Source of the DNA: Qipengyuania flavescens
GTDB taxonomy: Bacteria; Pseudomonadota; Alphaproteobacteria; Sphingomonadales; Sphingomonadaceae
NCBI RefSeq assembly: GCF_029688735.1
Contig: NZ_JARULD010000001.1
Coordinates: forward strand, 1-64,000
Length of the DNA: 64,000 nucleotides
Direction: 5' to 3'
Positions 10,787 through 34,417 of the stretch are shown piece after piece. The position numbers and the translations under genes are program-made. Every line of letters begins with the position of its first letter. Position 1 is the stretch's first letter. Under the pieces are notes generated by a model. The model was not told the origin of the DNA. It ran no database searches and saw only the letters and a list, made by a program, of their open reading frames with translations.

Positions 10787-13700
10787 TCAATGGAAGTCGC
10801 GCGATTTCGGGATCACGCGCACATCGCGCGGATGCCGCCCCCCCCAACCGCATTCGCGATTTCCCGGCGGCGGGTCTTGCCAGTCGTCCTTCGGCGGCGG
10901 CTTCGCCGTGGTTTCGGAAGCCGGAGCATCGGCACTCCCGGCCGGGTTTTCCCATCCCGCCTTGCACTGCGACGGGAGCGGGCTGTTCACATGATCCGCC
11001 CGCGCGATCGGCGCGACCAGCAGATCGTCCGACAAGCGGTGGAGATCCTGCGTCGCATCGGTCATGTGCTGGGCGATGACGTGTACGACCTCGTCGTCAT
11101 ATTCCACGCGCCCCCGCACTTCCATCAGCCGCGCACCCATTACCACCTTGCGCTGGCGGGCCTTGAGATCAGGCCAGATGACGAGGTTCACGACGCCGGT
11201 CTCGTCCTCCAGCGTGATGAAGCATACTCCCTTGGCGCTGCCCGGCTGCTGGCGGATCAGCACCACGCCCGCCACGTTGACGGTGGAGCGGAACTTGCGC
11301 TCGCGCAGGTCGCAGGCACGCACGAAGCCGCGCGCATCCAGATCCTCGCGCAGGAACGACATCGGATGCGCCTTCAGGCTGAGCCGCGTGGTCTGGTAAT
11401 CCGCCACGACTTCCTCGCTCAGCGGCATGTAAGGCAGCTGCGTGGCCGACGTTTCGGCACCTTCCTCCCGCTCCGCCGCGGCGGCGAACAGCGGCAGGTC
11501 GGGCTCGGGAATCAGGCTGCGCGCATCCCACAGCGCCTGACGTCGCGACAGCGCGATCGAACCGAAGCAATCGGCGCTGGCAAGCCGCTCGACATGCGAA
11601 GGGCCGATGCGGGCACGGTCCCGCAGCGCCGTGACGTCGGCATAGGGCCCCCGTTCCTCGCGCTCCCCGATCAGCCGTGCCGCCACGGCCTCGCGCAAGC
11701 CGTCGACCTGCCTGAGGCCGAGGCGCAAGGCGATCTCGCCCTCGCACTCTTCCAGCGTGCAGTCCCAGTCGGACAGATTGACGTCGGCGGGCAGCACCGT
11801 GACGTCATGTTCGCGCGCATCGCGCACGATCTGCGCCGGGGCATAAAAGCCCATCGGCTGCGAATTGAGCAGCGCGCAGGCGAAGGCCGCCGGATAATGG
11901 CACTTCATCCAGCTCGACACATAGACGAGGTGCGCAAAACTGGCGGCGTGGCTTTCCGGGAAGCCGTATTCGCCGAAACCCTTGATCTGCTCGAAGCAGC
12001 GTGCGGAGAATTCGGCATCGTAACCGCGTTCGATCATGCGGCCGACCATCATGTCCTGATGCTCGTTCACCATGCCGCGGCTGCGGAAGGTCGCCATGGC
12101 CTTGCGTAAGCGGTTCGCCTCCTTCGAGCTGAATTTCGCAGCGTCGATGGCGATCTTCATCGCCTGTTCCTGGAAGATCGGGACGCCATAGGTCCGCTCG
12201 AGGATCGACGAGAGCTCGTCGGGCGGACCGTGCTCCGGCGCGGGCGACGGCAGGTAGAAATCGGTCTTGCCCTCGCGCGCCCGGCGGCGCTGCTTGAGAT
12301 AGGGGTGAACCATGTCGCCCTGGATCGGCCCGGGCCGCACGATGGCGACCTGCACGACGAGATCGTAGAATTCGCGCGGCCGGAGCCTCGGGAGCATGTT
12401 CATCTGCGCTCGGCTTTCGACCTGGAACACGCCGAGCGAATCGCCCGTGCACAGCATGTCGTAGACCGCCGGATCCTCGCGCGGGATGGTCGCGAGCTGG
12501 TAGCTCTCGCAATGATGATCTTCGAGCAGTTTCAGACCCTTGCGGATGCAAGTTAACATGCCGAGGGCAAGCACGTCGACCTTGAGGATGCCGAGATCGT
12601 CGATGTCGTCCTTGTCCCACTCGATGAAGCTGCGGTCGGGCATGGCACCGTTGCCGATCGGGACCATCTCGGTCAGCGGGCCGTCGGTGAGGATGAAGCC
12701 GCCGACATGCTGGCTGAGATGGCGCGGCATGCCGATCATCTGCTCGGTCAGCTTGAGCACGCGGCGCAAATGCGGGTCGGTGAGGTCGAGGCCGGTTTCG
12801 TTCTCGACATGGCCTTCGTCGATCGTGCGGCCCCACCCGCCCCAGACGGTGCGTGCCAGCACGGCGGTGACATCCTCGGACAGGCCCATCGCCTTGCCCA
12901 CCTCGCGAATTGCCATGCGCGGTCGGTAGTGAATCACCGTGGCGCACAGCCCGGCCCGATGGCGGCCGTATTTTCTGTAGAGATACTGGATCACCTCCTC
13001 GCGGCGCTCATGCTCGAAATCGACATCGATATCGGGCGGCTCCTTGCGGTCTTCGGAGATGAAGCGGTCGAACAGGAGCTGGTGCTTTTCCGGATCGACG
13101 CTGGTGATGCCGAGGCAGTAGCAGACCGCCGAATTGGCCGCGCTCCCCCGCCCCTGGCACAGGATCGGCGGATCGACCTTGTTGCGCGCGAAATCGACGA
13201 TATCCTTGATGGTCAGGAAATAACGCGCAAGCTGCATCTTTCCGATCAGCGCGAGTTCCTTGTTCAGCGTTTCCCGCAAGCTGTCGGGAATGCCTTGCGG
13301 ATAGCGCCAGGCGGCCCCCTTCCAGGTTTCGCTTTCGAGATAGCCCTGCGGATCGACGCCGCCGGGATAGAGCTCTTCGGGATATTCGTATTTCAGCGTG
13401 TCGAGGCTGAAATCGCAGGCATCGGCCACTTCGCGCGTGGCGGCGATGGCATGTGGCCAGCGGGCGAACATGCGGACCATGGCGGCAGGCGACTTGAGGT
13501 ACCGCTCGGCATTGCCGAACAGCAGGTGCCCGGCCTCGGCCACCGTAGTCTTGTGGCGGATGGCGGTCATCACGTCCTGCAGGGGCCGCTTGTCGGGCGT
13601 GGCGTAATGCACGTCGTTGGTGGCGAGGATGCACAGATCGTTGGCCTGTGCGAAATGATCGAGCCGCTCGATCCGTTCGATATCGCTGGCCGTGTAAAGG

Positions 13701-14344
13701 TAGCTCGCGGCGATATAGCGCAATGTTGGCAGCTGGCGGGTTACGTGCGGAAGAAGGTCGGCCAGGTCACCCTCGACCTGCGTCCACTGGGTTTTGACTT
13801 CCTCCCCTGTATCCGCCTGGCGAAACGGCACGACATTGCTCGGGATCGCAATCGTGAAACGCTGCCCAAGATCGCGCGGCGGCACGAGGATCAGCTGCAC
13901 ATCCTCGCTCTGCGCAGCGAGCATGGCCAGCGAGATGTGGCACTCACCCTTGGCCTGCCACTCACCCTCCAGCGTGGCCATGCGTCCCTGCGAAATCAGC
14001 TGGCACAGACGCCCGTAAGCGGCGCGATCCCTGGGATAGGCGAGGAAGGCGAAACCTTCGACCGTTTCTATCCTGCAGCCGATAAGCGGTTTCAACTTAA
14101 GAGTTTTCGCCTCGCTATGGATGCGCACAACACCGGCCATGGTGTTGGCATCCGCAATCCCGATTGCATCGTAACCGAGCATATAGGCCCGCTCGACCAG
14201 ATCGACCGCATCGGACGCGCCGCGCAGGAAGCTGAAGCAGGAAACGAGGCCAAGCTCGACGAAAGGCGCGCGCTGCGGCGTCCTTACGAGGTCGGGATCG
14301 ACATCGATCCTGCGCTTCGGGATCTGGTGGTCGTTCTCCGGCAT
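10787..14344 (-). CDS. dnaE2: Error-prone DNA polymerase DnaE2 (ImuC)
   Basis: C-family translesion polymerase that works with ImuA and ImuB in SOS mutagenesis. The 1185-residue protein has an N-terminal PHP domain whose usual metal-binding HxH is replaced (VSCFSFLRGASDAVDL), as is common in DnaE2. The palm domain carries the catalytic acidic motif PPDIDVDFEHERREE (about residue 440). A fingers/HhH region and an OB fold follow (VNVAGVVLIRQQPGSAKG, ITLEDETGVVNLVIWP). The C-terminus ends in a proline-rich tail. It starts four bases after the UdgX stop and so is the third gene of the radical SAM-UdgX-dnaE2 operon, which has a LexA box in front. Large open frames on the opposite strand here are GC-driven shadows. 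Confidence 0.96.
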   Translation of the reverse strand: MPENDHQIPKRRIDVDPDLVRTPQRAPFVELGLVSCFSFLRGASDAVDLVERAYMLGYDAIGIADANTMAGVVRIHSEAKTLKLKPLIGCRIETVEGFAFLAYPRDRAAYGRLCQLISQGRMATLEGEWQAKGECHISLAMLAAQSEDVQLILVPPRDLGQRFTIAIPSNVVPFRQADTGEEVKTQWTQVEGDLADLLPHVTRQLPTLRYIAASYLYTASDIERIERLDHFAQANDLCILATNDVHYATPDKRPLQDVMTAIRHKTTVAEAGHLLFGNAERYLKSPAAMVRMFARWPHAIAATREVADACDFSLDTLKYEYPEELYPGGVDPQGYLESETWKGAAWRYPQGIPDSLRETLNKELALIGKMQLARYFLTIKDIVDFARNKVDPPILCQGRGSAANSAVCYCLGITSVDPEKHQLLFDRFISEDRKEPPDIDVDFEHERREEVIQYLYRKYGRHRAGLCATVIHYRPRMAIREVGKAMGLSEDVTAVLARTVWGGWGRTIDEGHVENETGLDLTDPHLRRVLKLTEQMIGMPRHLSQHVGGFILTDGPLTEMVPIGNGAMPDRSFIEWDKDDIDDLGILKVDVLALGMLTCIRKGLKLLEDHHCESYQLATIPREDPAVYDMLCTGDSLGVFQVESRAQMNMLPRLRPREFYDLVVQVAIVRPGPIQGDMVHPYLKQRRRAREGKTDFYLPSPAPEHGPPDELSSILERTYGVPIFQEQAMKIAIDAAKFSSKEANRLRKAMATFRSRGMVNEHQDMMVGRMIERGYDAEFSARCFEQIKGFGEYGFPESHAASFAHLVYVSSWMKCHYPAAFACALLNSQPMGFYAPAQIVRDAREHDVTVLPADVNLSDWDCTLEECEGEIALRLGLRQVDGLREAVAARLIGEREERGPYADVTALRDRARIGPSHVERLASADCFGSIALSRRQALWDARSLIPEPDLPLFAAAAEREEGAETSATQLPYMPLSEEVVADYQTTRLSLKAHPMSFLREDLDARGFVRACDLRERKFRSTVNVAGVVLIRQQPGSAKGVCFITLEDETGVVNLVIWPDLKARQRKVVMGARLMEVRGRVEYDDEVVHVIAQHMTDATQDLHRLSDDLLVAPIARADHVNSPLPSQCKAGWENPAGSADAPASETTAKPPPKDDWQDPPPGNRECGWGGRHPRDVRVIPKSRDFH

Positions 14345-14348
14345 ACCA

Positions 14349-15791
14349 TCACCCGGCCAGTTCCTCGAGCCGCTCCTTCACTGCAGCAAGATCGGCATCG
14401 AACAGGCGCGCCTGCTCTTCGCGCGCAGGTCCGTCGAGCCGCAGGAGGTAGGATGGATGCGCCATCACCCACAGCTCACTGCCGTCTTCGAGCGCAATCG
14501 GTTCGCCGCGGACCTTGGTGATGCTGACAGTCTTGCCTAGCATGCCGCGCGCCGCGCTCGCGCCCATGGCGAGGATCAGTTTCGGTTGCACGATCGCGCG
14601 CTCGCTTTCGATCCACCAGCGGCAGGTGTCGATCTCCTTCGCGCCGGGCGACTGGTGGATTCGCCGCTTGCCGCGTTGGACATATTTGAAATGCTTGACC
14701 GTATTGGTGACGTAAGCCGTACGCCGGTCGATCCCGACCTTCTCCAGATGCGCGTCGAGCAGCTGGCCCGCCGGCCCCACGAAGGGCCGCCCCTGCTGAT
14801 CCTCCTGATCGCCCGGCTGTTCGCCAACGATCATCAGCGCGGCATCCTGCGGCCCCTCGCCCATCACCGCGTGGTTGTCGAGCTGGCCGATCGGGCACTT
14901 GCGGCAGGCATGGATCGCCTTGTCGATCGCTGCGAGCGTTTCGGGCCGCTCCTCGAATTCCAGCGTTCCCTTCTCGACCATCGCACTTTCCCGCTTCTGC
15001 GCACCCGCCACCAGCTCGGGAATGAGCGCGGCTTCGGGCATGTTCTTCCAATATTTCTTGGGCATTTCCTTCAGCATCGCCCCGATCTTCAAACGCGCAG
15101 GGTTGAAGATCGACGCATAATAGCTGCGCCACAGATCCTCGGTCGGATCGCCGCTCGGCGCATCGCTGCGGTCGGCAGGCGGGCCTTCCGCCATCGTCTC
15201 GCCATCCCAATGCAGCGAGCCGCGCGGCGTCAGGATCGACCAGCGCATATTGGAAAAACGCCGCATGAAGAAGCCAGCATTGGCGCGCAGGATGTGGTGG
15301 TCGGGCTCGAACCAGGCGACGTAATGCTCACCGCCCTCTTCATCTTCGACCAGACGAAAGCGGACGAAGGCGTGCATCTTGTGACTGTCGCGGCGCACGT
15401 TCTTGTCGAGCTCTTCCAGCTTGCGGATATCGAGGTCCGCCTTGTCCTCCATGATCCGCGGATTGGCCTGCAATCGCCAGAGCAGGCGGTAGAGGAGAGC
15501 GAAACGCTCTGGATCGGAGTGAAGTGCGGCATTGCGCGCCAAGCTGACGAAGCGGCGGTTGGCGCGCACCGGCGGGGCATCCTTCGGCGGCACCGGCATG
15601 CGGCGCTTCCCATGCGCGAACAGGTCGCCGCTACCGCCCGGTTCGACCCAGGCGATCCGGTCGGGCGGGACATCGCACTGGATCAGCCCGCGCGCCCGCT
15701 CCCGCCAGAAGTCGAAATCGTCCGGCTCCGGCATGTGCACCACGTAATAAGTGCCGAGCTTCACGCCTGAGAGGCTGCTTGAGGACCTCAT
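14349..15791 (-). CDS. udgX: UdgX-family uracil-DNA binding protein fused to DUF4130
   Basis: A 480-residue two-domain protein. Residues about 1-260 match the DUF4130 / SAM-linked DNA metabolism domain (TIGR03915-like), starting GTYYVVHMPEPDDFDFWRER, with no known activity. Residues about 285-480 form a family-4-like uracil-DNA glycosylase domain with iron-sulfur cysteines in ACRKCPIGQ, the GEQPGDQEDQQGRPFVGPAG active-site block and the loop KRRIHQSPG. The KRRIH insertion, with His379, is the hallmark of UdgX, which in Mycobacterium forms a covalent bond with uracil-derived abasic DNA. ATG 15791 overlaps the radical SAM stop (ATGA); a longer in-frame extension upstream lies in the other gene and is unlikely. 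dnaE2 follows after four bases. Confidence 0.93.
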   Translation of the reverse strand: MRSSSSLSGVKLGTYYVVHMPEPDDFDFWRERARGLIQCDVPPDRIAWVEPGGSGDLFAHGKRRMPVPPKDAPPVRANRRFVSLARNAALHSDPERFALLYRLLWRLQANPRIMEDKADLDIRKLEELDKNVRRDSHKMHAFVRFRLVEDEEGGEHYVAWFEPDHHILRANAGFFMRRFSNMRWSILTPRGSLHWDGETMAEGPPADRSDAPSGDPTEDLWRSYYASIFNPARLKIGAMLKEMPKKYWKNMPEAALIPELVAGAQKRESAMVEKGTLEFEERPETLAAIDKAIHACRKCPIGQLDNHAVMGEGPQDAALMIVGEQPGDQEDQQGRPFVGPAGQLLDAHLEKVGIDRRTAYVTNTVKHFKYVQRGKRRIHQSPGAKEIDTCRWWIESERAIVQPKLILAMGASAARGMLGKTVSITKVRGEPIALEDGSELWVMAHPSYLLRLDGPAREEQARLFDADLAAVKERLEELAG

Positions 15792-17032
15792 GCCGCGAAC
15801 AGTTCCAGCTGCTCGGACTTCGGCGCGAGCAGGCTGCGCAGGTCCGCGCGGTCGGTCAGCGTGATCGGGCGCCAGTCCACGGTGCAGATGAACGGCCGCA
15901 CTTTGGTGATCGATTGCGTCAGAAGCGCCACATCGTCGAGCCGCAGATTGCGATGGCGACGACTGGCGATAATCTTGTTCACCGCCTTTACGCCGAGGCC
16001 CGGCACGCGCAGCAATTGCTCGCGACTGGCACGGTTCACATCGAGCGGGAACTGCTCGCGAAACTTGAGCGCCCACGCGAGCTTGGGATCGATGTCGAGT
16101 GGCAAATTCCCGTCCGCCTCGGTCGCCTGCATCACCTCGGTCGGCTTGTAGCCATAGAAACGCATCAGCCAGTCCGACTGGTAGAGCCGATGCTCGCGGA
16201 TCAGCGGCGGGCGCTTCAGCGGCAACACCGCGCTGGCGTCGGGGATCGGCGAGAAAGCGCTGTAATAGACCCGGCGCAGACGGAAATTATCGTAGAGCCG
16301 GCTCGCCTTGCCCACGATATCGGCATCGCTCGCCGCATCGGCGCCGACGATCATTTGCGTGGACTGGCCCGCAGGCGCGAAGCGCGGCGCATGGCGGAAG
16401 CGTTTGCGCGCATCCTTCGCCTCGACGAGGTCGGCCTTCACCTTGCCCATCGCGCCTTCGATCTGGCGCGCATCCTTGTCGGGCGCGAGGCGGGTGAGGC
16501 CACTGTCGGTCGGCAGCTCGACATTGATCGACACACGGTCGGCATAGAGCCCCGCCTGATGGACGATCTCGGCATCGGCTTCGGGAATGGTCTTGAGGTG
16601 GATGTAGCCGCGAAAATCGTGTTCTTCCCGTAGGATGCGGGCGACTTCCACGATCTGCTCCATCGTGTGGTTCGAGCTCTTCACGATGCCCGACGACAGG
16701 AACAGCCCTTCGATATAATTGCGCCGGTAGAAGGCGAGCGTCAGGTCGACCACTTCCTGCGGCGTGAAGCGCGCACGCGCCACGTTCGAGCTCTTGCGAT
16801 TGACGCAGTAATGGCAGTCGAACACGCAGTGATTGGTCAGCAGGATCTTGAGCAGGCTGATGCAGCGGCCATCGGGCGCATAAGCGTGACAGATGCCCAT
16901 TCCCTCGGTCGAACCGATCCCCTTGCCGCCCAGACTGTTCTTCTTCGCCGTACCTGACGACGCGCAGGACGCATCGTATTTCGCCGCATCGGCGAGGATC
17001 TCGAGCTTCTGGAGGATGGTTTGCGACGCCAT
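15788..17032 (-). CDS. Putative DNA modification/repair radical SAM protein
   Basis: A 414-residue radical SAM enzyme of the type linked to UDG-family genes (TIGR03916-like); its substrate is unknown. The 4Fe-4S ligating motif CVFDCHYC (CX3CX2C) is near residue 80. Extra cysteines occur at the N-terminus (DASCASSG, GICHAYAPDGRC). The C-terminal region VNRASREQLLRVPGLGVKAV is a helix-hairpin-helix, suggesting DNA binding. Start ATG 17032 is chosen because MASQTILQKLEIL begins the conserved part and the LexA box ends just upstream; longer forms would run through that box. It is the first gene of the operon and overlaps udgX by four bases. Confidence 0.9.
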   Translation of the reverse strand: MASQTILQKLEILADAAKYDASCASSGTAKKNSLGGKGIGSTEGMGICHAYAPDGRCISLLKILLTNHCVFDCHYCVNRKSSNVARARFTPQEVVDLTLAFYRRNYIEGLFLSSGIVKSSNHTMEQIVEVARILREEHDFRGYIHLKTIPEADAEIVHQAGLYADRVSINVELPTDSGLTRLAPDKDARQIEGAMGKVKADLVEAKDARKRFRHAPRFAPAGQSTQMIVGADAASDADIVGKASRLYDNFRLRRVYYSAFSPIPDASAVLPLKRPPLIREHRLYQSDWLMRFYGYKPTEVMQATEADGNLPLDIDPKLAWALKFREQFPLDVNRASREQLLRVPGLGVKAVNKIIASRRHRNLRLDDVALLTQSITKVRPFICTVDWRPITLTDRADLRSLLAPKSEQLELFAA

Positions 17033-17034
17033 AT

Positions 17035-17049
17035 GTTCTTTATATGTTC
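17035..17049 (-). promoter_or_regulatory. LexA (SOS) box, radical SAM-udgX-dnaE2 operon
   Basis: On the plus strand the site reads GTTCTTTATATGTTC, an exact GTTC-N7-GTTC direct repeat (GAAC-N7-GAAC on the gene strand), the alphaproteobacterial LexA operator. It ends two bases before the start codon of the radical SAM gene, so LexA binding would block transcription and probably overlaps the ribosome binding region. The same geometry occurs at imuA. Confidence 0.88.
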
Positions 17050-17245
17050 TCTCGCACGTTTTTCCAACAGCAAAATGCTGCGACCGCGGGAACTCCCACG
17101 CCAGAACAGCGTAAAAATTGCACGGACCGGGCCCCTCTGGCGAGCGCGATGTGCTCGTGATGTCGGACGTTGAGCGATCGCCCCTGGCGATAAAGCAAAC
17201 CAGCGCCCGACCCACTCTGACTTCGGGCGCCAAAGGAGAGTGGTT

Positions 17246-17968
17246 ATGATATCTCGTCGATCCATGCTTGGTGCAACGGGGGCCGCCAGCGCCGCCGCCT
17301 TGCTGGGCGGTAATTCTGCCCTGGCGCAGGATAATCCGGCAATGCCCGAACCTGCGCCGCCGGCTTCCGACCTCACCCCCGACCAGGCACTCGAACTATT
17401 GAGACGAGGCAACGAACAGTTCCTTACCGGCGGCCGTACGAGCGTCTTGACCAGTTCCCAACGGCGGCTCGATCTCGCCGCCGGGCAACAGCCTTTCGCT
17501 GCCTATGTAACATGCTCCGATAGCCGGGTGCCGCCCGAACTCCTGTTCGGTCGCGGACTGGGGGAGCTTTTCATCATTCGCAATGCCGGGAATACTGTGG
17601 ACACGGTCGCCCTCGGGTCGATCGAATATGCCGTGGCGGTGCTGAATGTCCCCCTCGTGGTCGTGATGGGACACGAGAGTTGCGGTGCCGTCAAAGCGGC
17701 GACCGAAGTCGTGACGGACAATGCGACATTCCCGGGTTCCATCGGCCCCATGATCGAACCGATCATCCCCGCGGTCCTCTCTGTCCGTGACAAGGACGGC
17801 GATCTGCTCGACAATTCGGTGCGCGCCAACGTTAGCCGTGTCGTACGGCAGCTTCGACAGCATACCGACCCCATCTTGCTCGAGCCGCAGCGAGCCGGGA
17901 AACTGAAAGTCGTCGGTGCTTATTACGATCTCGACGATGGGCGTGTGGACTTCTTCGATCGCCCCTGA
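17246..17968 (+). CDS. Beta-carbonic anhydrase with Tat signal
   Basis: Zinc enzyme for reversible CO2 hydration, likely exported. The 240-residue protein begins ISRRSMLGATGAASAAALLG, a twin-arginine signal, with cleavage probably after ALAQ. Catalytic residues of the beta class are present: Cys-Asp-Ser-Arg in VTCSDSRVPPE, and His and Cys in GHESCGAV. Helix motifs LFIIRNAGNTVD and ALGSIEYAVAVL fit the family. ATG 17246 has AGGAG seven bases upstream; an in-frame GTG at 17240 is less well placed. Gene orientation is opposite to the flanking SOS operons, and there is no sign of SOS control. The gene is followed by a strong hairpin. Confidence 0.93.
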   Translation: MISRRSMLGATGAASAAALLGGNSALAQDNPAMPEPAPPASDLTPDQALELLRRGNEQFLTGGRTSVLTSSQRRLDLAAGQQPFAAYVTCSDSRVPPELLFGRGLGELFIIRNAGNTVDTVALGSIEYAVAVLNVPLVVVMGHESCGAVKAATEVVTDNATFPGSIGPMIEPIIPAVLSVRDKDGDLLDNSVRANVSRVVRQLRQHTDPILLEPQRAGKLKVVGAYYDLDDGRVDFFDRP

Positions 17969-17972
17969 ATGC

Positions 17973-18016
17973 GATACCCGTCCGGCAAGGTGCCGGGCGG
18001 GTATCCCTAAAGTTTA
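17973..18016 (+). terminator. Hairpin terminator after carbonic anhydrase
   Basis: A 15-base stem (17973-17987 pairing with 17991-18005, one G-U pair) with a three-base loop follows the stop codon by four bases. The downstream stretch is only moderately T-rich (CCTAAAGTTTATTT), so it may act as a weak intrinsic terminator or a transcript-stabilising hairpin. Confidence 0.65.
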
Positions 18017-18082
18017 TTTACCGTGTCGGAAAAGGTCGCAGTAACCAGAACCCCGCGATGACGTCCGGTAAGGGGGCACCGC

Positions 18083-18481
18083 ATGGCGCTATTCCAGAGA
18101 AAACAGGTCGCGTGCCAATCCGAACGACGCACCAGTCGGCGGCATTCCGTCGACTGCCCCGCGTCGCTTCGCTTGCTTGGCGGCGAACGATGCGGTCGGT
18201 TGCGCGATCTGTCGCTCGACGGCGCATGTTTTGAGGCAGAGGACTTGCCGGCCAGCGGCATTTCCGGGCTGCTCGCCTGGGGTGATCAGGAACACTGGTG
18301 CAAGGTGGTATGGAGCCGCGACGGTAGCTGCGGGCTGGTGTTCGAGCGCAGCATTCCGCAAGCAGCAGTGGACGCCACGGTCCAGACGGTCGAAGTCGAG
18401 ACCGGCCCGGTGGCGAATTTCAGCAACATACCCCTCGGCCAGAAGCGCTCGCGCCGCGCGTTCCTGGTGTCCGAAAGCTAG
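18083..18481 (+). CDS. PilZ domain-containing protein
   Basis: A 132-residue cytoplasmic protein consisting mostly of a PilZ domain, the common receptor for cyclic di-GMP. The N-terminal arginine cluster SERRTSRRHSVDCPASL supplies the RxxxR element (residues about 14-22), and DLSLDGACFEA is the matching D/NxSxxG motif. Start ATG 18083 has AAGGGGG seven bases upstream. No output domain is attached, so it probably acts by binding another protein. Its TAG stop overlaps the imuB TAG stop on the other strand by two bases (the genes share four bases), a tight convergent arrangement. Confidence 0.85.
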   Translation: MALFQRKQVACQSERRTSRRHSVDCPASLRLLGGERCGRLRDLSLDGACFEAEDLPASGISGLLAWGDQEHWCKVVWSRDGSCGLVFERSIPQAAVDATVQTVEVETGPVANFSNIPLGQKRSRRAFLVSES

Positions 18482-20046
18482 GCGCAGAGCCCCTGCAGGA
18501 ACCAGTCCGGCGGGCCGCCCCGTCCGTCTCCGGCGATGCCCTGGCGATAGATCCAGTAGCGCCGCCCTCGCTCGTCCTCGATCCGGTAGTAATCGCGTAG
18601 GCGGACCGAACCGCGCTCGCGCCACCATTCGGGTGCGATCCGCTCCGGCCCTTCGACCCGCGCGACTTCGTGCACGCCGCCGCGCCAGCGAAAGCGCTGA
18701 GGGTAGCCGTCGGGCGAAGCATAGAGCACGGCGATGCGCTCCGGCGTGTCGAGCATCTTCAGCGGGCGGGCGTGGAATTCCAGCACCCCTTGCGTCGGTG
18801 GCTCCCGCTCCAGCGGCGGCTTCCAGCGCTGCGCGCGCTCCGGGATGTGGCTGGCGAAAGGCACCGGGCGGCTGACCGCCTTGGGGCCGAGCCGCACCGT
18901 CAGCCGGTCGATACAGGTGGCGAGCGAGGTGCCGGGGCTTTCCGCCTGCGCCTCGATATCGCCCTGTGCCAGAGCGAGCGGCTCCGTCCAGCTGGCTCGC
19001 AGGCGCAGCAGTTCGATGCCGAAGCCCGCCTCGATATCGTCGAGCCGCGCGGCAAACAGGCGGCAGATATGCGCGGGATCGCGCGTGGCGGCGGACATCT
19101 CCAGCCTGCGCACTGCAACCTCGCCATCGACCCGCCACAACCCCAGTTCCAACCCCCGCGCGCCCAGCCCCTTGCTCTCGAGAAGCTGTGCCATGTCATC
19201 GGCAAGATCGTTCACCACCTGATCGAGCAGAGTGCGGTGACGGATCGGCTCCATCAGGCGCCGCTGGGTGAGCGGCGCGTGATGTTCTATTACCGGGAGG
19301 AGCGGTTCCGGAATCCGCCCGAGCAGCTGGTCGAGGCGCAGCAGCGGGTTGGCCTCGGGCACCTTGCGCTTGCGGAACCGGCGCTGGAGCGCGTCGCGCC
19401 CGATAGTTGTAATGTCGCCGATCCGCTTGAGGCCGAGGCGGCGCAGGACGGTGAGCACATCGCTGCCAAGCCGCAGCGCCGCGACGGGCAGGTCGGCCAG
19501 CATAGGCTCCAGCTCGCGATCCACGATCGCCCCGGCCCAGCCGAAATGCGCCAGCGCCCAGGCTGCCCCTGCGGTGGGCGCAATGGCTGTACGGATGGCG
19601 AGATCGCGCCGGGCGAAACCCGCGCACACGTCCTCCAGCAGCGCCTCTTCCCCGCCGAACAGATGCGCGACGGCGGTCACGTCCACCAGCAGGCCGTCGG
19701 GTTCGTCCATCGCCGACCACGGGCCCCAGCGCTGCGCCCGGACGGCAAGCTGTTCGAGGAACGCCAGATCGCCCGTTGGGTCGCTGGGTGCGGTCGAGAT
19801 TTCCGGGCACAGCGTGCGGGCATCGGCCAGCATCATGCCCCGACGCGCGCCGGCATCCATGGCGAGGCGATTGGCGGCCTCGATCCGCGGGCCGTGCGCC
19901 GTGTCGGCAATCAGCACTAGCGGCCCGCTATCGAGTTCGCCTCCGGCCTCTCGCGTGACGATCCGCCAACGGTCGATCGCAAATGCAGGCAGCCAGATTG
20001 AGAGGATGCGGCGGGACGACCCGAGGTCGCCGGCAAGCGCGCTCAT
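18478..20046 (-). CDS. imuB: ImuB, Y-family polymerase-like mutasome scaffold
   Basis: A 522-residue Y-family polymerase homologue that acts as a non-catalytic hub between ImuA, DnaE2 and the sliding clamp. The N-terminus ILSIWLPAFAIDRWRI replaces the metal-binding aspartates of active Y polymerases, as expected for ImuB. Later blocks (GAWALAHFG, RRLGLKRIGDI, GRIPEPLLPV) follow the ImuB fold. The C-terminus YWIYRQGIAGDGRGGPPDWF and the LQGLCA end match the conserved ImuB tail. Its ATG overlaps the imuA stop (ATGA), so the two are translated together. Expression should follow the LexA box before imuA. Confidence 0.93.
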   Translation of the reverse strand: MSALAGDLGSSRRILSIWLPAFAIDRWRIVTREAGGELDSGPLVLIADTAHGPRIEAANRLAMDAGARRGMMLADARTLCPEISTAPSDPTGDLAFLEQLAVRAQRWGPWSAMDEPDGLLVDVTAVAHLFGGEEALLEDVCAGFARRDLAIRTAIAPTAGAAWALAHFGWAGAIVDRELEPMLADLPVAALRLGSDVLTVLRRLGLKRIGDITTIGRDALQRRFRKRKVPEANPLLRLDQLLGRIPEPLLPVIEHHAPLTQRRLMEPIRHRTLLDQVVNDLADDMAQLLESKGLGARGLELGLWRVDGEVAVRRLEMSAATRDPAHICRLFAARLDDIEAGFGIELLRLRASWTEPLALAQGDIEAQAESPGTSLATCIDRLTVRLGPKAVSRPVPFASHIPERAQRWKPPLEREPPTQGVLEFHARPLKMLDTPERIAVLYASPDGYPQRFRWRGGVHEVARVEGPERIAPEWWRERGSVRLRDYYRIEDERGRRYWIYRQGIAGDGRGGPPDWFLQGLCA

Positions 20047-20864
20047 GCCTGCTGCGACAGTCGCCGCCGCTGAAGCCCCGCAGTCCAGTTGAGCGCGCCG
20101 GTATCATTGTCCGCCTGCCGTTTGCGTCGGGCTTTCAGTGCCCCGCCCTGCTCCTGCAGCAGCCACTCGCCCGGCGCATGCCCGCGTGCCCGGAACAGCT
20201 CGGCCTGCCAGACCGGCGCACCGGGAGCCTGCGCATTCCACCGGGGCGCGTCGGAGGCGGCAGAGCTGACATCCCAGCGCATCCGGGCCGACGACAGGTC
20301 GCGCGCCGCATCGAGCCGGACGAGGAACAGCGGCACGCCGTATTTCTCGCTCGCCAGCGTGAGGCGGCGCGAGGCTGTGAAATCGAGCGCCTTCGGATTG
20401 CCCGCGATCTCGCCCATAACCCAGGCGATGTCCCGGCAGCGGACGCCTTCTTCCAAAGCGAAAAGCGCATCTTGCGCGGTATCGGCGAGCACGTGGATCA
20501 ACCGGTCGCGCACTTCCTTGGGCAGGCCTGCCCGGTAAGGACGCCCGGAAAGCCGCGCCGCATCGCGCGTCTGCACCCACAGGACTGGCCGGGTGTCGGA
20601 CTCGGCGGGAGTCACGGCGTGAGCATCGCCGCGACCTTCGCCGCGAGGCAGGTTTCGCCAATCGTCGAGCGCCAGGGCCAGCGCCGCTCCCGCTCCGGCC
20701 GCTTCATTCGGCGAGGCAAACACCTCGCTATGTAGCGCCGCCCTGCCCGCTGCCGCCAGGCCCGGCCGCCAACGCGAACTATTCCGCGCCGCGATGGTAC
20801 CGGCATCGACGAGCGAGGCCAGCGGCAGGGAGGCGGTGGCGGAAGGCATGACGGAACGACTCAT
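20043..20864 (-). CDS. imuA: ImuA, RecA-like mutasome protein
   Basis: A 273-residue protein of the ImuA family (distant RecA/SulA relative) that acts with ImuB and DnaE2 in SOS-induced mutagenesis. Recognisable stretches are EVFASPNEAAGAGAALALAL, PVLWVQTRDAARLSGRPY and RCRDIAWVMGEIAGNPKALD. No intact Walker A is present, which is normal in this group. The start at 20864 has AGGA five bases upstream, and that AGGA lies inside the LexA box. The gene overlaps imuB by four bases. Identification rests on sequence character plus the imuB neighbour. Confidence 0.9.
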   Translation of the reverse strand: MSRSVMPSATASLPLASLVDAGTIAARNSSRWRPGLAAAGRAALHSEVFASPNEAAGAGAALALALDDWRNLPRGEGRGDAHAVTPAESDTRPVLWVQTRDAARLSGRPYRAGLPKEVRDRLIHVLADTAQDALFALEEGVRCRDIAWVMGEIAGNPKALDFTASRRLTLASEKYGVPLFLVRLDAARDLSSARMRWDVSSAASDAPRWNAQAPGAPVWQAELFRARGHAPGEWLLQEQGGALKARRKRQADNDTGALNWTAGLQRRRLSQQA

Positions 20865-20866
20865 TT

Positions 20867-20881
20867 GTTCCTAATATGTTC
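20867..20881 (-). promoter_or_regulatory. LexA (SOS) box, imuA-imuB operon
   Basis: The plus strand reads GTTCCTAATATGTTC, an exact GTTC-N7-GTTC repeat. It ends two bases before the imuA start codon and covers its ribosome binding site, the same geometry as the box at 17035. This places both mutasome operons under LexA. Confidence 0.88.
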
Positions 20882-27716: not shown

Positions 27717-29477
27717 TCAGGACGCGAGGAGCGAGGTCAGCTTCGCCTGCAGATCGGCACGCGCTGCATTCTGCTCCGGCGGCAAGGTCGCGATCAGCGC
27801 GGCAATCGCGCGCGGATTGAGCGGTTGCAGTTCGTGGGCGCGAAACGCAAAGTCCAGCGCCGTGCCAGCATCGCCCAGCTGACCGGCGGCGATCCCTCTG
27901 GATGCTAGCACCCACGGCACGCGGGATTGGCCATGCGCGATCGCGTGGTCCAGCAGCGCCGCCGCCTGCTGCCACTTGCCCTGCGCAGCAGAAGCATCGG
28001 CCAGCAGCGCCGCCGCATGTCCGTTCATCGGATTGGCCTGCAGATATTCCCCCAGCAGCTCGGCAGCTGCCTCAGGCGTTGCCTGGCTTCCCGCCAGCCT
28101 GAGCGTCAGCGGCCAGGGCTGCCTGATATCGGCGGCGCGAACATAGGCGTCCCTCGCCGCGCGGCGGTCACCGCTGGCAAGCTCGGCATCGCCGAGGATC
28201 GCATAGCCATCGGCCGACCCCGGGAACCGCCTGACGAAATCTTCCGCACTCCCCACTGCCGATCCGCGTGCCTGACCGAACAATACCGACCGCACGAAAT
28301 CCCGCGTCTGCGCGCCACCGCCTCCGGTAGCGGTGAGCGTTTCGGTAGGCGTGTCGCTCGGGAGAGGCGCAAGTCCGTCCGGACCGAGTGCCGCAAGGTC
28401 GATGAACTGCGCCGCCTTTGCTCGCTGCTCGAGAGCCTCGTGAGCCCTTCCGACCAAAAGGCGCAAATGCGGCGACCCTGCGGGACCCAGCGCGCGGTCG
28501 GAAAACCGATAGACCAGTTCCCGCTCGCTCCCGCTTTGCGATAGCGCTGAAGCGAGCAATTCCACCGCGCGGACATTGTCGGGCTGGTCGAGCAACAGGC
28601 GATCGAGGGTCTGCGCCGCGCTTGCCGGATTGGCATTCTGCAAATCGACGATCGCCGACAGCATCAGCGATGCAGGCACACCCGCGGTCTCCAGGCCGGA
28701 GCGTTGCAGCAATTCGCGCGCCAAGAGGAACTTGCCGCCACGCGCCGCGATCACCGCCTGGAGGTAAAGCCCGGTTTCGGACAGGACAGCCCCCTCGCCG
28801 CCTTCGCGCAGAACGGCAAGCGCATCGGCTGCCCTGCCCGCATCGCCGAGAGTGGCAGAATATTCGAGACGCAGGTCGAGGTCGTCGGGGTGCAATTCGA
28901 GCGCGCGCTCGAACCATTCGATCGCGGGCACCATCCCCGATGCCTCCCGGATCAGCTGCCCGCGGAATAGCAGGGCGGCCTTGTTTTCGGGCGCAAGCGC
29001 TAAAGCCCTGTCGGCAGCTTGCACAGCCTCGACCTGCTCGCCGCCCAGAAAGCGCAAGCGACCGATATCTACCCAGAGCTCCGGGTTGTCCGGTGCGACC
29101 GCGTGGGATCGGTCGAACGCCTTCCCGGCCGCTGCTAGATCCCCTCGAGCCATCTCCAGCCTGCCGAGCATTCGCCACCCAAGCGCTGCCGTATCGTCAG
29201 AGAACGATCCGGGTTCTAGCCACCGCGCCGCGCTTTCCAGGTCTCCCGACTGGAGCGCAGCTTCGCCAAGCAATGCGGCGAGTTCCGCCCGATCGGTTCC
29301 CTCCGCCAGCTGGCGTTCGAGGATGATCCTCGCATCTTCGGGAAAGCCACGCGAAATCTCGTATCTGGCTTGCTCGACAGGGTCGAACCGGTCCGGACCA
29401 CCCTCGCATCCCGCCAAGCCGAGGGAACAGAACAAGACGGCGGCAACAGGCCGAAGGATGTCACGCCTGAAGATCAT
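27717..29477 (-). CDS. prsT: TPR lipoprotein, PrsT-like (PEP-CTERM/exopolysaccharide system)
   Basis: A 586-residue lipoprotein with signal peptide and lipobox LAGC (Cys24), then a chain of tetratricopeptide-like repeats to the C-terminus (for example ALGWRMLGRLEMARGDLAAA, ELWVDIGRLRFLGGEQVEAV and AIEWFERALELHPDDLDLRL). The family of TPR lipoproteins next to PrsK/PrsR (TIGR02917) is usually longer, near 900 residues, so this is a short form. A Gly/Thr-rich linker (LTATGGGGAQTRDF) near residue 385 divides two repeat blocks. It overlaps prsR by 17 bases and is the last gene of the operon. Likely role is in envelope export or polysaccharide assembly, inferred from context. Confidence 0.8.
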   Translation of the reverse strand: MIFRRDILRPVAAVLFCSLGLAGCEGGPDRFDPVEQARYEISRGFPEDARIILERQLAEGTDRAELAALLGEAALQSGDLESAARWLEPGSFSDDTAALGWRMLGRLEMARGDLAAAGKAFDRSHAVAPDNPELWVDIGRLRFLGGEQVEAVQAADRALALAPENKAALLFRGQLIREASGMVPAIEWFERALELHPDDLDLRLEYSATLGDAGRAADALAVLREGGEGAVLSETGLYLQAVIAARGGKFLLARELLQRSGLETAGVPASLMLSAIVDLQNANPASAAQTLDRLLLDQPDNVRAVELLASALSQSGSERELVYRFSDRALGPAGSPHLRLLVGRAHEALEQRAKAAQFIDLAALGPDGLAPLPSDTPTETLTATGGGGAQTRDFVRSVLFGQARGSAVGSAEDFVRRFPGSADGYAILGDAELASGDRRAARDAYVRAADIRQPWPLTLRLAGSQATPEAAAELLGEYLQANPMNGHAAALLADASAAQGKWQQAAALLDHAIAHGQSRVPWVLASRGIAAGQLGDAGTALDFAFRAHELQPLNPRAIAALIATLPPEQNAARADLQAKLTSLLAS

Positions 29478-30831
29478 ACTGCTTCAGGAGGTCGTACAGG
29501 GTCGGCCGGCTGATACCGAGCAATTTCGCCGTATTGGAGATATTGCCCTCGCTGCGCGCCAAAGCCTGACGGATCATCCGACGATCGGCCTGTTCGCGCG
29601 CCGATTTCAGGTTCAGCGCAAGATCGCTCTCGGTGTCATCGGTATTGCCGAGATCGAGATCTTCCGCACCAACGAGCTTGCCATCGGCCATGATGACGGC
29701 GCGTTTCACCCGATTTTCCAGTTCGCGGACGTTACCGGGCCAGTTCCAGCCATCGATTGCAGCCAACGCATCTGGCGCGAACCCCTTGACCTGCGGGTTC
29801 ATTTCCGCGGCGAACCGAGCAAGAAACGTCTTCGCCAGCAGCACGGCATCGCCCGGCCGCTCTGCCAAGGTCGGGACTTTGACGACGATTTCGGCGAGGC
29901 GGTAGAACAAATCCTCGCGGAAAGTCCCCTCCCCGATCATCGCCTCGAGATCCTGATGGGTTGCACACACAATCCGCGTATCGACCGGGATCGGCTTGCG
30001 ACCGCCGATACGCTCGATCGTGCGTTCCTGCAGGAAGCGCAGCAACTTCACCTGCAGAGGCAGCGGAATATCGCCGACCTCGTCGAGGAACAGCGTGCCG
30101 CCATCGGCGAGTTCGATCTTGCCCTCGGTCGTCTTGACTGCCCCGGTGAAGGCTCCTTTCTCGTGACCGAACAATTCGCTTTCGAGCAGGTTTTCGGGGA
30201 TTGCCGCACAGTTGATGGCAATGAATGCGCGCGACTTGCGATTGCTCGTCTCATGCACACCCTTGGCCAGTAGCTCTTTCCCCGTGCCGCTAGCGCCGAG
30301 CAGCATTACCGAGACATTCGTCGGCGCAACGCGCTCGATTGTACGCGCGACCTTAGCCATCTCCGGCGCAGCAGTCACCAGCGAGCCTAGCACGGTCCGG
30401 TCCTCGCCAATCTTCTCCGACAGGCGCCGGTTCTCCTGCTCGATCCGATGCAGGCGCAGCGCCCGATCGACGATCAGGCCGAGCTTATCGATATCGACCG
30501 GCTTCTGGTAGAAATCATAGGCCCCGCGCTCGATTGCCTGAAGCGCGCTTTCCCGAGCGCCATGACCGGAAGCGACGATCACCTTCGTGTCGGGCTTCAT
30601 CGCCATGATCGCATCGAGCACGGCGAAGCCTTCGCTGGTGCCGTCCGGATCGGGCGGGAGTCCCAGGTCCAGGGTGACGACTTCCGGCTCCTCCGCGCGC
30701 AGGGCGGCCAGCGCGGCTTCGCGATTCCCCGCGATCACGACCTCGTAGTCGTCATAAGCCCATTTGAGCTGGGCCTGCAGACCTTCGTCGTCCTCGACAA
30801 TCAGCAGCTTGGGCTTGGAGCCTGCCATCAT
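29461..30831 (-). CDS. prsR: PrsR, sigma-54-dependent response regulator
   Basis: A 456-residue NtrC-type activator. The receiver domain (1-125) has acidic residues EDD and phosphoacceptor Asp55 in VVTLDLGLPP. The AAA+ domain carries Walker A GASGTGKELLAKGVHE, the sigma-54 contact loop GAFTGA (ELFGHEKGAFTGAVK) and Walker B GGTLFLDEVGD. The C-terminal Fis-type helix-turn-helix reads SNTAKLLGISRPTLYDLLKQ. This arrangement matches PrsR (TIGR02915), which controls PEP-CTERM and exopolysaccharide genes in other bacteria. It overlaps the PrsK stop by four bases. Target promoters should be of -24/-12 type; I did not find a clear one within the operon. Confidence 0.92.
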   Translation of the reverse strand: MMAGSKPKLLIVEDDEGLQAQLKWAYDDYEVVIAGNREAALAALRAEEPEVVTLDLGLPPDPDGTSEGFAVLDAIMAMKPDTKVIVASGHGARESALQAIERGAYDFYQKPVDIDKLGLIVDRALRLHRIEQENRRLSEKIGEDRTVLGSLVTAAPEMAKVARTIERVAPTNVSVMLLGASGTGKELLAKGVHETSNRKSRAFIAINCAAIPENLLESELFGHEKGAFTGAVKTTEGKIELADGGTLFLDEVGDIPLPLQVKLLRFLQERTIERIGGRKPIPVDTRIVCATHQDLEAMIGEGTFREDLFYRLAEIVVKVPTLAERPGDAVLLAKTFLARFAAEMNPQVKGFAPDALAAIDGWNWPGNVRELENRVKRAVIMADGKLVGAEDLDLGNTDDTESDLALNLKSAREQADRRMIRQALARSEGNISNTAKLLGISRPTLYDLLKQYDLQA

Positions 30832-32936
30832 GCGTCCTCGTATTTCGGTTTGTCGGGTGCTTGCCCGACCAGATGTTTGGTAGCCTGCAACGGCAGTGTG
30901 ACGGTGAAACGCGAGCCGATGCCTTCGCGGGATTCTGCATCGAGCCGCCCGCCCATTCCGCGGATCGTCTCGCGCGCCTCGAATGCGCCGATGCCGAAAC
31001 CACCCTCCTTGGACGATACGAACGGCTTGAACAGGCCGTTGCGAAGGAATGTCGCAGACATGCCCTGTCCGTGGTCGATCAGGTGCAGCTTGCCGCTGAC
31101 CCCGTCGGTATAGACTTCGAGTACGACCGAACTCTCGGCGCTGCTGGCATCGATCGCGTTCTGGACGAGATGGACGAGTGCCTGTTCGAGCCCCTCTTCG
31201 TCACCCAGCACAAGTGCGCTTTCGCACCTTAGCAGGGAAACGGAGCGGATGGCCGAAAAGCGATCGACGACACGCCGCGCGGTGGAAGCAAGATCGAACG
31301 GCGAAAGCGCGCCTTTGTCCTTCGTCCCGTAACGCCCGAGCCGCGCGAGTAGCGTGTTCAGTTTGTCTGCGCTGTTGCGCAGCGTGACCAGCATGTCGGC
31401 ACGGAATTCCGGTTTGTCCGCGTGCTTTTCTGCATTGCGGAGGAGCAGCGACATCTGGCTCGACAGGTTCTTGATGTCATGCATCACGAAAGCCATGCGG
31501 CGGTTGAATTCGTCGAATCGCCCCGCCTCGATCAGCGCGGCCTGGCCGGCTTGCTCGGCCAGATAGCTAGCCAACTGCCGGCTCACCACGGTCAAGAGAT
31601 CGAAGTCTTCCCAGTCGAGCTTGCGGGTGACCAAGGGCCGCGCGAGGATGGCGAGCCCGACCAGGCGATCGAAGTGCAGCAGTGGCACCGCGGCCCAGGC
31701 CGTCTGGTCGTCACGCAGCCAGTCCGGGATAAGATCGCGCTCTCCATAGTGATCGACGCCTGCGCGCACCTCGTCGAAATCGACGATGAGTTCCCTTTGC
31801 TCCAGCATTCCTGCGAGCGCGGACGGGAGCGTCGGTGGTGGCATTTCGTCCTCGCGCCAGCGCCAGTCCGCTGCCAGCTCCAAAGCACCCTCATCATCGG
31901 TCAGGAACAGCATGCCGGAAGGGCTGTCGGTAATCTCGGCCAGCGCCTTGATCGCACGCTCCGGCAGGCTGGTCTCGTCGAACCCCGTGCGCCCGATCGT
32001 GTTCGTGAAGCGTATCCACTCGTTGCGGTAGTCGTAACGATGTTTGAAGAGGTGCTTGACTGCCGTCACGCGCAGCCATCCCCTGAGCTGTGCCGAGGGC
32101 AGCCAAATCAGCGCCAGCGCGCCCGCCGCAATCACAACGCCAACCTGGACGAGGCGGGCGAGGTCGCCGGTCAGCATGTCGAGCCAGCGGGCAAGGCCGA
32201 GCATAAGCATCAGATACGCGCCGATGACCAGCAAGGAGAGGAAGCGGAACGCCACTGCCCGCGACGGGCGGAATTCCAAGCCGGAAGCGGCGCGGGCGAA
32301 GCCCAGAGCAAACGGTATGGCGACAATCCCCGCCGCGAGGCCGCGCAAGGCGGAAAGTTCGACCGGCACCGACCCGAGAATATAGGCGATTGTGTAGTAG
32401 TTGAGATCGAAGGCCCAGAGTCCGGCTAGCGCGGCCGCATTCCACCGCAGCAATTGGCGGGACGCGGCGGCCGCGCCGACGTAGAGATTGTGAACCAGCA
32501 CCAACGCGCCCACCGCAACGAGGACGCGGAACATCGTGGCAGTCTCGAAGGTGAGTGAGACGAGCTGGGGTGTCACCGCATAGCGATGCGCGATCAGCAA
32601 AAGGACGAGTTGTGACGCCTCGACGAAGCATAGTGCAATCAGCGCTGGTCTGACGATACGCAGCGTCTCGTCGCGGCCGTCGTTTGCAAAATGGCGGAAC
32701 AACACGAAGAGCCATGTGAAATTGCGCGCGATCTCGGTCAGTTCGACGATCGCGCGCCCGGTCTCGAAGCTTGCTGCCGCGAAACACCAGTTCGCCGTCA
32801 GCGCCAAAGCCACGATGGCCGGCGTCCGGTCGTTGCGACTTGTGTCGCCTTTGGTGGCCACCCAAATGGCGCAGATCGCGCACACGATCGCGCCGATCGT
32901 GTAGGTAACGTAAGAAGCGGTGCTCGCCCAAGCCAT
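30828..32936 (-). CDS. prsK: PrsK, membrane histidine kinase
   Basis: A 702-residue sensor kinase. Residues about 1-290 contain eight or more membrane helices. A GAF-like domain follows (about 320-470, SPSGMLFLTDDEGALELAAD), then an H box in FVMHDIKNLSSQMSLLLRN with His486. An HATPase domain has LVHLVQNAIDASS, DHGQGMS and FGIGAFEARETIRGMGGR. The HDIKNL form of the H box and overall layout match PrsK (TIGR02916), the partner of PrsR. The ATG shares one base with the stop of the sugar transferase (TGATG), and the prsR start overlaps its end. Signal unknown. Confidence 0.92.
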   Translation of the reverse strand: MAWASTASYVTYTIGAIVCAICAIWVATKGDTSRNDRTPAIVALALTANWCFAAASFETGRAIVELTEIARNFTWLFVLFRHFANDGRDETLRIVRPALIALCFVEASQLVLLLIAHRYAVTPQLVSLTFETATMFRVLVAVGALVLVHNLYVGAAAASRQLLRWNAAALAGLWAFDLNYYTIAYILGSVPVELSALRGLAAGIVAIPFALGFARAASGLEFRPSRAVAFRFLSLLVIGAYLMLMLGLARWLDMLTGDLARLVQVGVVIAAGALALIWLPSAQLRGWLRVTAVKHLFKHRYDYRNEWIRFTNTIGRTGFDETSLPERAIKALAEITDSPSGMLFLTDDEGALELAADWRWREDEMPPPTLPSALAGMLEQRELIVDFDEVRAGVDHYGERDLIPDWLRDDQTAWAAVPLLHFDRLVGLAILARPLVTRKLDWEDFDLLTVVSRQLASYLAEQAGQAALIEAGRFDEFNRRMAFVMHDIKNLSSQMSLLLRNAEKHADKPEFRADMLVTLRNSADKLNTLLARLGRYGTKDKGALSPFDLASTARRVVDRFSAIRSVSLLRCESALVLGDEEGLEQALVHLVQNAIDASSAESSVVLEVYTDGVSGKLHLIDHGQGMSATFLRNGLFKPFVSSKEGGFGIGAFEARETIRGMGGRLDAESREGIGSRFTVTLPLQATKHLVGQAPDKPKYEDA

Positions 32937-34321: not shown

Positions 34322-34417
34322 CCGGTCGCGCTCGCGAAATTGCTGGTGTCGGAATATTTGACTAGCAGCGAGGAATGAACCGTCGGTAAACTTTACACAA
34401 TAGCGACGACGCACGAA

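Follow-up and report, generated by a model that had tools for sequence, protein, structure and literature searches.

A candidate clamp-docking tail on the radical SAM protein of a LexA-boxed radical SAM/DUF4130-UdgX gene pair that is joined to dnaE2 in Qipengyuania flavescens

The described systems closest to the locus reported here are the ImuA-ImuB-DnaE2 mutasome and the gene sets that combine a radical SAM protein (TIGR03916), DUF4130 (TIGR03915) and the uracil-DNA glycosylase UdgX (TIGR03914), also known as COG4277-COG1573. The legend of figure 1 in Aravind 2013 (PMC3765255) presents DUF4130, which it associates with SplB-like radical SAM proteins and uracil DNA glycosylases, as a predicted mutagenesis-related enzyme; in the literature covered, from which most subscription journals were absent, DUF4130 was found named only once, in that legend. 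SOS control of the COG1573-COG4277 pair has been predicted in Bacteroidetes (PMC8565304), and the available part of that article cites reports of SOS-controlled COG1573-COG4277 in Verrucomicrobia and Alphaproteobacteria (Caulobacter) and names GTTC-N7-GTTC as the alphaproteobacterial LexA motif. Going by that text, SOS control of the radical SAM/UdgX pair is already known in kind. A Caulobacter genome used as a control contains TIGR03916, and PMC1839093 describes imuAB-dnaE2 for Caulobacter. The set is common in the phylum (TIGR03916 occurs in 53 of 299 genomes drawn from it) and little understood. Here we describe a locus within a window of 64 000 nucleotides (nt) of Qipengyuania flavescens (NZ_JARULD010000001.1), the whole stretch of DNA analysed, in which the radical SAM and DUF4130-UdgX genes are followed directly by dnaE2, near imuA-imuB. 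All coordinates are window positions.

By layout, imuA-imuB and radical SAM/DUF4130-UdgX/dnaE2 are two transcription units, composed as follows.

20864-20043, minus strand: imuA, a name that rests on position and on relatives before imuB
20046-18478, minus strand: imuB, with Pfam matches IMS, IMS_C and DUF6504 over cut-off
17032-15788, minus strand: radical SAM gene (TIGR03916), ATG start, 414 amino acids
15797-15811, minus strand: C-terminal QLELF of the radical SAM protein, candidate beta-clamp-binding pentapeptide, residues 408-412 of 414
15791-14349, minus strand: DUF4130-UdgX fusion gene, 480 amino acids
15030-15725, minus strand: DUF4130 (TIGR03915) domain of the fusion gene, profile match
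14379-15026, minus strand: UdgX domain (TIGR03914) of the fusion gene, with GEQPG, KRRIH and HPSYLLR
14344-10787, minus strand: dnaE2, error-prone polymerase III alpha, 1185 amino acids

The radical SAM and DUF4130-UdgX genes overlap by ATGA, and a 4-base gap precedes dnaE2, just as an earlier note on this DNA had described; the exact box that it placed ahead of the radical SAM gene and the similar one ahead of imuA are likewise present (see below). It gave the distance to imuA-imuB as 3 kb, and the imuB stop actually lies 1.4 kb from the radical SAM start. The NCBIfam scores are 572.6 for TIGR03916 in the radical SAM protein (cut-off 343.5), 222.4 for TIGR03915 in the DUF4130 part (cut-off 112.25), 318.1 for TIGR03914 in the UdgX part (cut-off 189.95) and 1378.3 for the error-prone polymerase model PRK05672 in DnaE2 (cut-off 939). 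Pfam and NCBIfam searches with the ImuA protein gave no match. The highest identity of the radical SAM protein among the named loci is 96 per cent, to Qipengyuania polymorpha, although the window's own record may have been excluded from that comparison.

The most useful new fact of the locus is the clamp-like tail of the radical SAM protein, for which no description was found in the literature covered. The pattern Q-[LMFA]-x-L-[FLWIA] occurs in the last 12 residues of 78 of the 79 proteins of usable length from the same taxonomic family (shuffled tails: mean 0.5, maximum 3 matches); in L070, the only exception, QLDLF is shifted inwards by one residue. All 63 aligned proteins have Q408, and at least 90 per cent have L411. 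Outside the family, the motif was found within 16 residues of the end in 35 of 40 proteins from the phylum (shuffled mean 0.4, maximum 3). Among the named loci, 78 of 80 match a looser form of the tail, the two misses being QLDMF and QPDLF. The usual forms are QLSLF, QLELF, QMELF and QLALF, and we take Q-L-x-L-F to be the bacterial beta-clamp-binding consensus; the odd forms QLGFGF, QLILPF, QLRFDF and QLILQF presumably resemble its six-residue variant.

Breadth outside the phylum was judged from ten plasmid and phage sequence records, chosen by availability. In these few records, which include Bacillota and Bacteroidota, the tail reads QLSLF in Pusillibacter and Subdoligranulum, QLSIF in Acetoanaerobium and QLILPF in Parabacteroides. 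The protein of Gemmatirosa, with 35 per cent identity and without the N-terminal cysteines, ends in QLSLW, and five human-faeces scaffolds filed as phage carry QLSFF, QLRFDF, QLSMF, QLSLF and QLILQF. Eight of the 10 'phage' records are 'Bacteriophage sp.' from human faeces; a phage origin of the pair was considered and rejected, as only one of 38 pattern-matching viral stretches encodes a relative.

In the AlphaFold model of the radical SAM protein (mean predicted local distance difference test (pLDDT) score 86), residues 409-411 fall below 50, as expected of a free tail. A Q-L-x-L-F type peptide in a free tail is the sequence pattern of a clamp client, and we regard it as a conserved candidate clamp-docking peptide through which the protein may bind the beta clamp.

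The remainder of the protein is that of a radical SAM enzyme with a DNA-binding-type element. Its Pfam matches are to the general radical SAM domain, Fer4_12 and a helix-hairpin-helix; TIGR03916 is the sole NCBIfam match at an E-value of 1e-5, with no match to an SplB-named model, and the Foldseek matches of the structural model include HydE, biotin synthase and lipoyl synthase. Six cysteines are kept in 63 of 63 rows: C69, C73 and C76 of the CX3CX2C motif, and three additional invariant ones, C23, C48 and C57 (16862-16966, minus strand). One might guess that the latter bind a second iron-sulphur cluster; the model is of low confidence at residues 23-34 and 41-55, which hold C23 and C48, with C57 just outside.

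Both transcription units are preceded by a box of the pattern GAAC-N7-GAAC, the start codon standing 2 nt further on. The promoter features are the following.

17049-17035, minus strand: LexA-type box GAACATATAAAGAAC, 2 nt before the radical SAM ATG
17044-17039, minus strand: -10-like TATAAA, inside box GAACATATAAAGAAC
17062-17067, minus strand: -35-like TTGGAA, 17 nt before the -10-like hexamer, read from the sequence
20881-20867, minus strand: LexA-type box GAACATATTAGGAAC, 2 nt before the imuA ATG

The number of such boxes in the window is unremarkable: five were found against 1.68 expected, and eight of 100 shuffles reach five, so box number was rejected as proof of SOS control, and the claim rests on placement and conservation. 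The whole genome contains 84 boxes, against 50 for a reversed control pattern; among the first 30 of the 84, only these two stand 2 nt before an open reading frame of at least 100 amino acids. The genome also encodes LexA (175.1 bits, cut-off 110.95), and the match to lexA has a box of this pattern some 40 nt past its upstream end.

Conservation was followed in a family sample of 119 genomes, of which 81 have a radical SAM gene over the cut-off. A box lies at most 60 nt upstream of this gene in 75 of the 81 loci, and the reversed control pattern in one. When start codons are assigned mechanically, 61 loci with ATG and three with GTG show a spacing of 2 nt, four a spacing of 3 nt and seven other values. 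Six loci have no box in this orientation, and four of these carry one in the opposite orientation 33-34 nt upstream. No box was found within 60 nt before udgX (0/76) or the linked dnaE2 (0/23), and one was found before imuB in one of 22 cases. In all 21 linked genomes (those with dnaE2 beside the pair) in which imuA was located, it is preceded by a box, and 36 of 39 unlinked imu cassettes carry a box within 1900 nt upstream. Among the named loci, 77 of 80 have a box within 300 nt of the radical SAM start. Outside the family, a box in either orientation lies within 400 nt in 26 of 26 loci of the same class and in none of 14 from other classes, as would be the case if the box is that of the alphaproteobacterial LexA.

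A GTTC-N7-GTTC direct repeat at the promoter, its conservation in relatives and a LexA in the genome are thus found together. The LexA-type control that the earlier note had predicted for both units is well supported by these patterns. The design of the predicted promoter is precise. In 75 aligned loci, the spacer of the box opens with ATATA (A 92%, T 99%, A 99%, T 75%, A 81%); further upstream, 18 and 16 nt ahead of the box, T is found in 91% and G in 87% of these loci. In the window, the A of the radical SAM ATG stands seven bases past TATAAA. Since the -10 element lies within the box, whose end is 2 nt from the start codon, and since 75 of the 81 loci have the box, mostly at the same spacing, LexA probably covers the -10 element and the message is probably leaderless.

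The linkage to dnaE2 is less widespread. In 23 of the 81 genomes, belonging to many genera, dnaE2 and the radical SAM match share a strand and are 1.5-1.8 kb apart, and in 19 of these the gap between udgX and dnaE2 is 1-15 nt (dnaE2 starts being approximate). The remaining 58 are unlinked, and 55 of them hold dnaE2 over the cut-off elsewhere. Of the 61 listed unlinked dnaE2 stretches, 40 were covered: 39 have imuB upstream in the same orientation, one has it divergent, and imuA was detected in 26 of the 40. The conservation of the udgX-dnaE2 adjacency, on which the earlier note had staked its proposal, is therefore partial: it is kept in 23 genomes and absent from 58 of the 81 that bear the radical SAM gene.

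Quick trees, with support from the Shimodaira–Hasegawa-like approximate likelihood ratio test (SH-aLRT) only, indicate how this distribution may have arisen. In the radical SAM tree, the linked rows all fall in one group of 39 together with 16 unlinked rows, and 12 changes are needed. The 22 usable of the 23 linked rows need two changes in the DnaE2 tree and one in the ImuB tree (support 74). The 23 linked genomes were not accepted as independent support, because the DnaE2 and ImuB trees show a single group. According to the trees, the radical SAM gene persists in genomes with a different mutasome lineage, and the simplest account would be a single origin of the linkage, followed by its loss in genomes that rely on another mutasome lineage. 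The distance from the end of imuB to the radical SAM gene is 94, 62 and 50 bp in L034, L044 and L046, respectively, so that the five genes are nearly contiguous, with a second LexA-type promoter kept mid-way; this fits an insertion of the pair between imuB and dnaE2, which may have been the origin of the linkage.

Of the 119 genomes, 78 have both the radical SAM gene and dnaE2, three the radical SAM gene only, 27 dnaE2 only and 11 neither (Fisher p = 1.9e-4, kinship uncorrected). Among these, G012 contains a dnaE2 fragment that scores below the cut-off. The other two, G032 and G108, are nearly complete and have no dnaE2 over the cut-off, with matches only at the level of the replicative enzyme; G032 keeps the radical SAM gene and DUF4130-UdgX, and G108 the radical SAM gene and a match to residues 16-267 only (DUF4130). 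The dnaE2 linkage is thus real but a derived, lineage-specific arrangement. Adjacency alone fails to show that the pair works in DnaE2 synthesis, because elsewhere the units are separate. The earlier note had taken operon membership with the polymerase as a stronger functional link than proximity; with one origin on the trees, 58 of 81 genomes unlinked and the pair persisting without DnaE2, this argument is not supported.

The pair stands beside imu genes in three lineages, two of which share a head-to-head layout, independence not being implied. In another family (f7), imuA-imuB is head to head with the radical SAM gene in four of five genomes, with one box between them (L161-L164), and in Henriciella pelagia (L234) imuA-imuB-dnaE2 is head to head with radical SAM-udgX, with two boxes between. 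In the Sphingomonas-like loci L065, L070, L089, L209 and L219, the radical SAM gene and udgX are separated by a small same-strand open reading frame that is hemerythrin-like when judged by eye.

Conserved residues mark both halves of the fusion protein (AlphaFold model, mean pLDDT 93). The DUF4130 residues H137, R144, E162, R178, D215 and W248 are kept in 75 of 75 rows. In the UdgX part, motif A (GEQPG) and the R-loop histidine are kept in 74 of 75 rows and the K of KRRIH in 68; the roles of these motifs are treated in PMC10359453. With TIGR03914 over the cut-off, GEQPG, KRRIH with the reactive histidine and the HPS motif, the domain has the sequence features of a UdgX, and nearly all of the 50 fold matches listed for the fusion model are UDG-type structures. 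The Parabacteroides and Pusillibacter records hold radical SAM and DUF4130 with no UdgX annotated beside them and no dnaE2 annotated within 3 kb; on this ground we read UdgX as a probable add-on and radical SAM plus DUF4130 as the putative core.

On the mutasome side, a DnaE2-type polymerase and a Y-family-like ImuB with a C-terminal DUF6504 region are both present. ImuB was considered as a carrier of a clamp peptide and rejected: the pattern is absent from 61 of 62 ImuB rows, the other having an internal QLGLW, and the aligned ImuB stretch contains no clamp-type motif. In DnaE2, an internal LPLF behind a helix-hairpin-helix was counted by eye in 57 of 62 rows and is a possible clamp site of its own.

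We consider it fairly probable that the pair is an SOS-induced, clamp-docked module that processes a base lesion and that, in one lineage, was brought together with the mutasome operon. What was computed directly is the order of the genes, their domains, the conserved catalytic residues and boxes, the clustering of linked rows and the conserved tail. The first unit, imuA-imuB, would form the mutasome together with dnaE2; the second would be radical SAM plus DUF4130-UdgX; and LexA would repress both from a box covering the -10 element. In one lineage the second unit, with its own promoter, would have settled between imuB and dnaE2 and would now drive dnaE2. Its radical SAM protein would be tethered to the beta sliding clamp through the C-terminal QLELF and to DNA through the helix-hairpin-helix. 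The UdgX domain would hold uracil, or the leftover abasic sugar, through the R-loop histidine, DUF4130 and the radical SAM centre would act chemically on the same or a related base lesion, and DnaE2 from the same message would bypass or fill the remaining damage. We infer LexA binding to the boxes and a sharing of the clamp between the pair and DnaE2 at the same sites.

Several observations weigh against this proposal. The tail motif is short, and its conservation does not prove clamp binding; the five misses outside the family are four QLGFGF, all from f7, and one RQGSLF. There is no box at all in L076 and L085 (2/81 family loci), and a simple promoter scan of the window did not list the proposed radical SAM promoter, so that its prediction rests on conservation. 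In five of the 81 radical SAM loci, the stretch retrieved showed no udgX, the gap between udgX and dnaE2 is 91-137 nt in four of the 23 linked genomes (starts approximate), and 27 of the 119 genomes hold dnaE2 but no radical SAM gene.

It is quite possible, if somewhat short of probable, that the pair forms an SOS repair unit in its own right, functionally unconnected to DnaE2, and that dnaE2 merely gains a second LexA promoter by regulatory hitch-hiking. The separation of the units in 58 of 81 genomes speaks for this, as do G032 and G108, the retention of the radical SAM gene in genomes with a different mutasome lineage, and the Parabacteroides and Pusillibacter records without nearby dnaE2. 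The linkage to the mutasome in two other lineages (four of five f7 genomes and H. pelagia) and the association of the two genes across the 119 genomes, at the p-value given above, are less easily explained by it. These further imu linkages, together with an operon kept in 23 genomes of many genera, would favour the model of the earlier note, in which UdgX and the radical SAM protein act inside the mutasome and tag or convert uracil-type lesions before or during DnaE2 synthesis. The linkage fits a single origin within the family, however, the pair occurs without DnaE2, and radical SAM plus DUF4130 without annotated UdgX suggests that uracil capture is not the core activity; this model seems to us rather unlikely.

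The tail itself could serve for docking to DUF4130, or to some further partner, instead of to the clamp. The radical SAM gene adjoins DUF4130 even where no UdgX is annotated, and in two of the sequences from outside the phylum, L305 and L312, the motif is some 40 residues away from the C terminus; but the usual forms fit the presumed clamp consensus and the odd ones its presumed six-residue variant, and we hold such docking to be improbable. That the pair is a DNA modification or anti-phage system instead of a repair system is very improbable: the NCBIfam name leaves 'modification/repair' open, but PADLOC gave no match for the radical SAM, DUF4130-UdgX or ImuB protein, and a LexA-type box stands on nearly every alphaproteobacterial copy examined.

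Extending the clamp-docked SOS module to the whole protein family, we lean towards viewing TIGR03916 proteins as clamp-tethered DNA repair radical SAM enzymes, always partnered by DUF4130, to which UdgX adds a grip on uracil; within the SOS regulon of alphaproteobacteria they would be a core part, transcribed without a leader, and share the clamp with ImuAB-DnaE2, beside which the pair stands in three lineages. The conserved clamp-like tail gives this little-understood set a place of action and a one-peptide handle, and the fused operon provides natural strains that make the pair and DnaE2 together, so that epistasis is measurable.

Two genes on the opposite strand lie between imuB and the radical SAM gene.

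18083-18481, plus strand: PilZ-domain protein gene
17240-17968, plus strand: carbonic anhydrase gene

An Rfam terC RNA (RF03067; 17119-17175, plus strand; 48.2 bits, gathering threshold 39.9) precedes the carbonic anhydrase gene and sits in the divergent gap common to it and the SOS radical SAM promoter. Elsewhere in the window, genes for a TPR protein, a sigma-54 response regulator, a GAF/HATPase kinase and a bacterial sugar transferase are clustered at 27717-34414 (minus strand).

Compared with the TIGR03916/TIGR03915/TIGR03914 set, the locus is alike in having all three families over the cut-off and differs in that dnaE2 comes directly next in the same unit. No earlier description of this dnaE2 operon arrangement, or of UdgX together with dnaE2, was found in the literature covered, and neither the udgX-dnaE2 operon nor the clamp tail appears in the available part of PMC3765255 on SplB-like/DUF4130 neighbourhoods. 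Like the solved Mycobacterium smegmatis UdgX (chains of 205-229 residues), the UdgX domain has the GEQPG, KRRIH and HPS-LLR motifs, and it matches structure 6ajp with a template modelling score (TM-score) of 0.88 by target length at 41 per cent identity; unlike it, the domain follows DUF4130 in a fusion protein and is coupled to a radical SAM gene. The ImuA-ImuB-DnaE2 mutasome has the same three genes and a LexA-type box before imuA, whereas here radical SAM and DUF4130-UdgX, which have their own LexA-type promoter, separate imuB from dnaE2.

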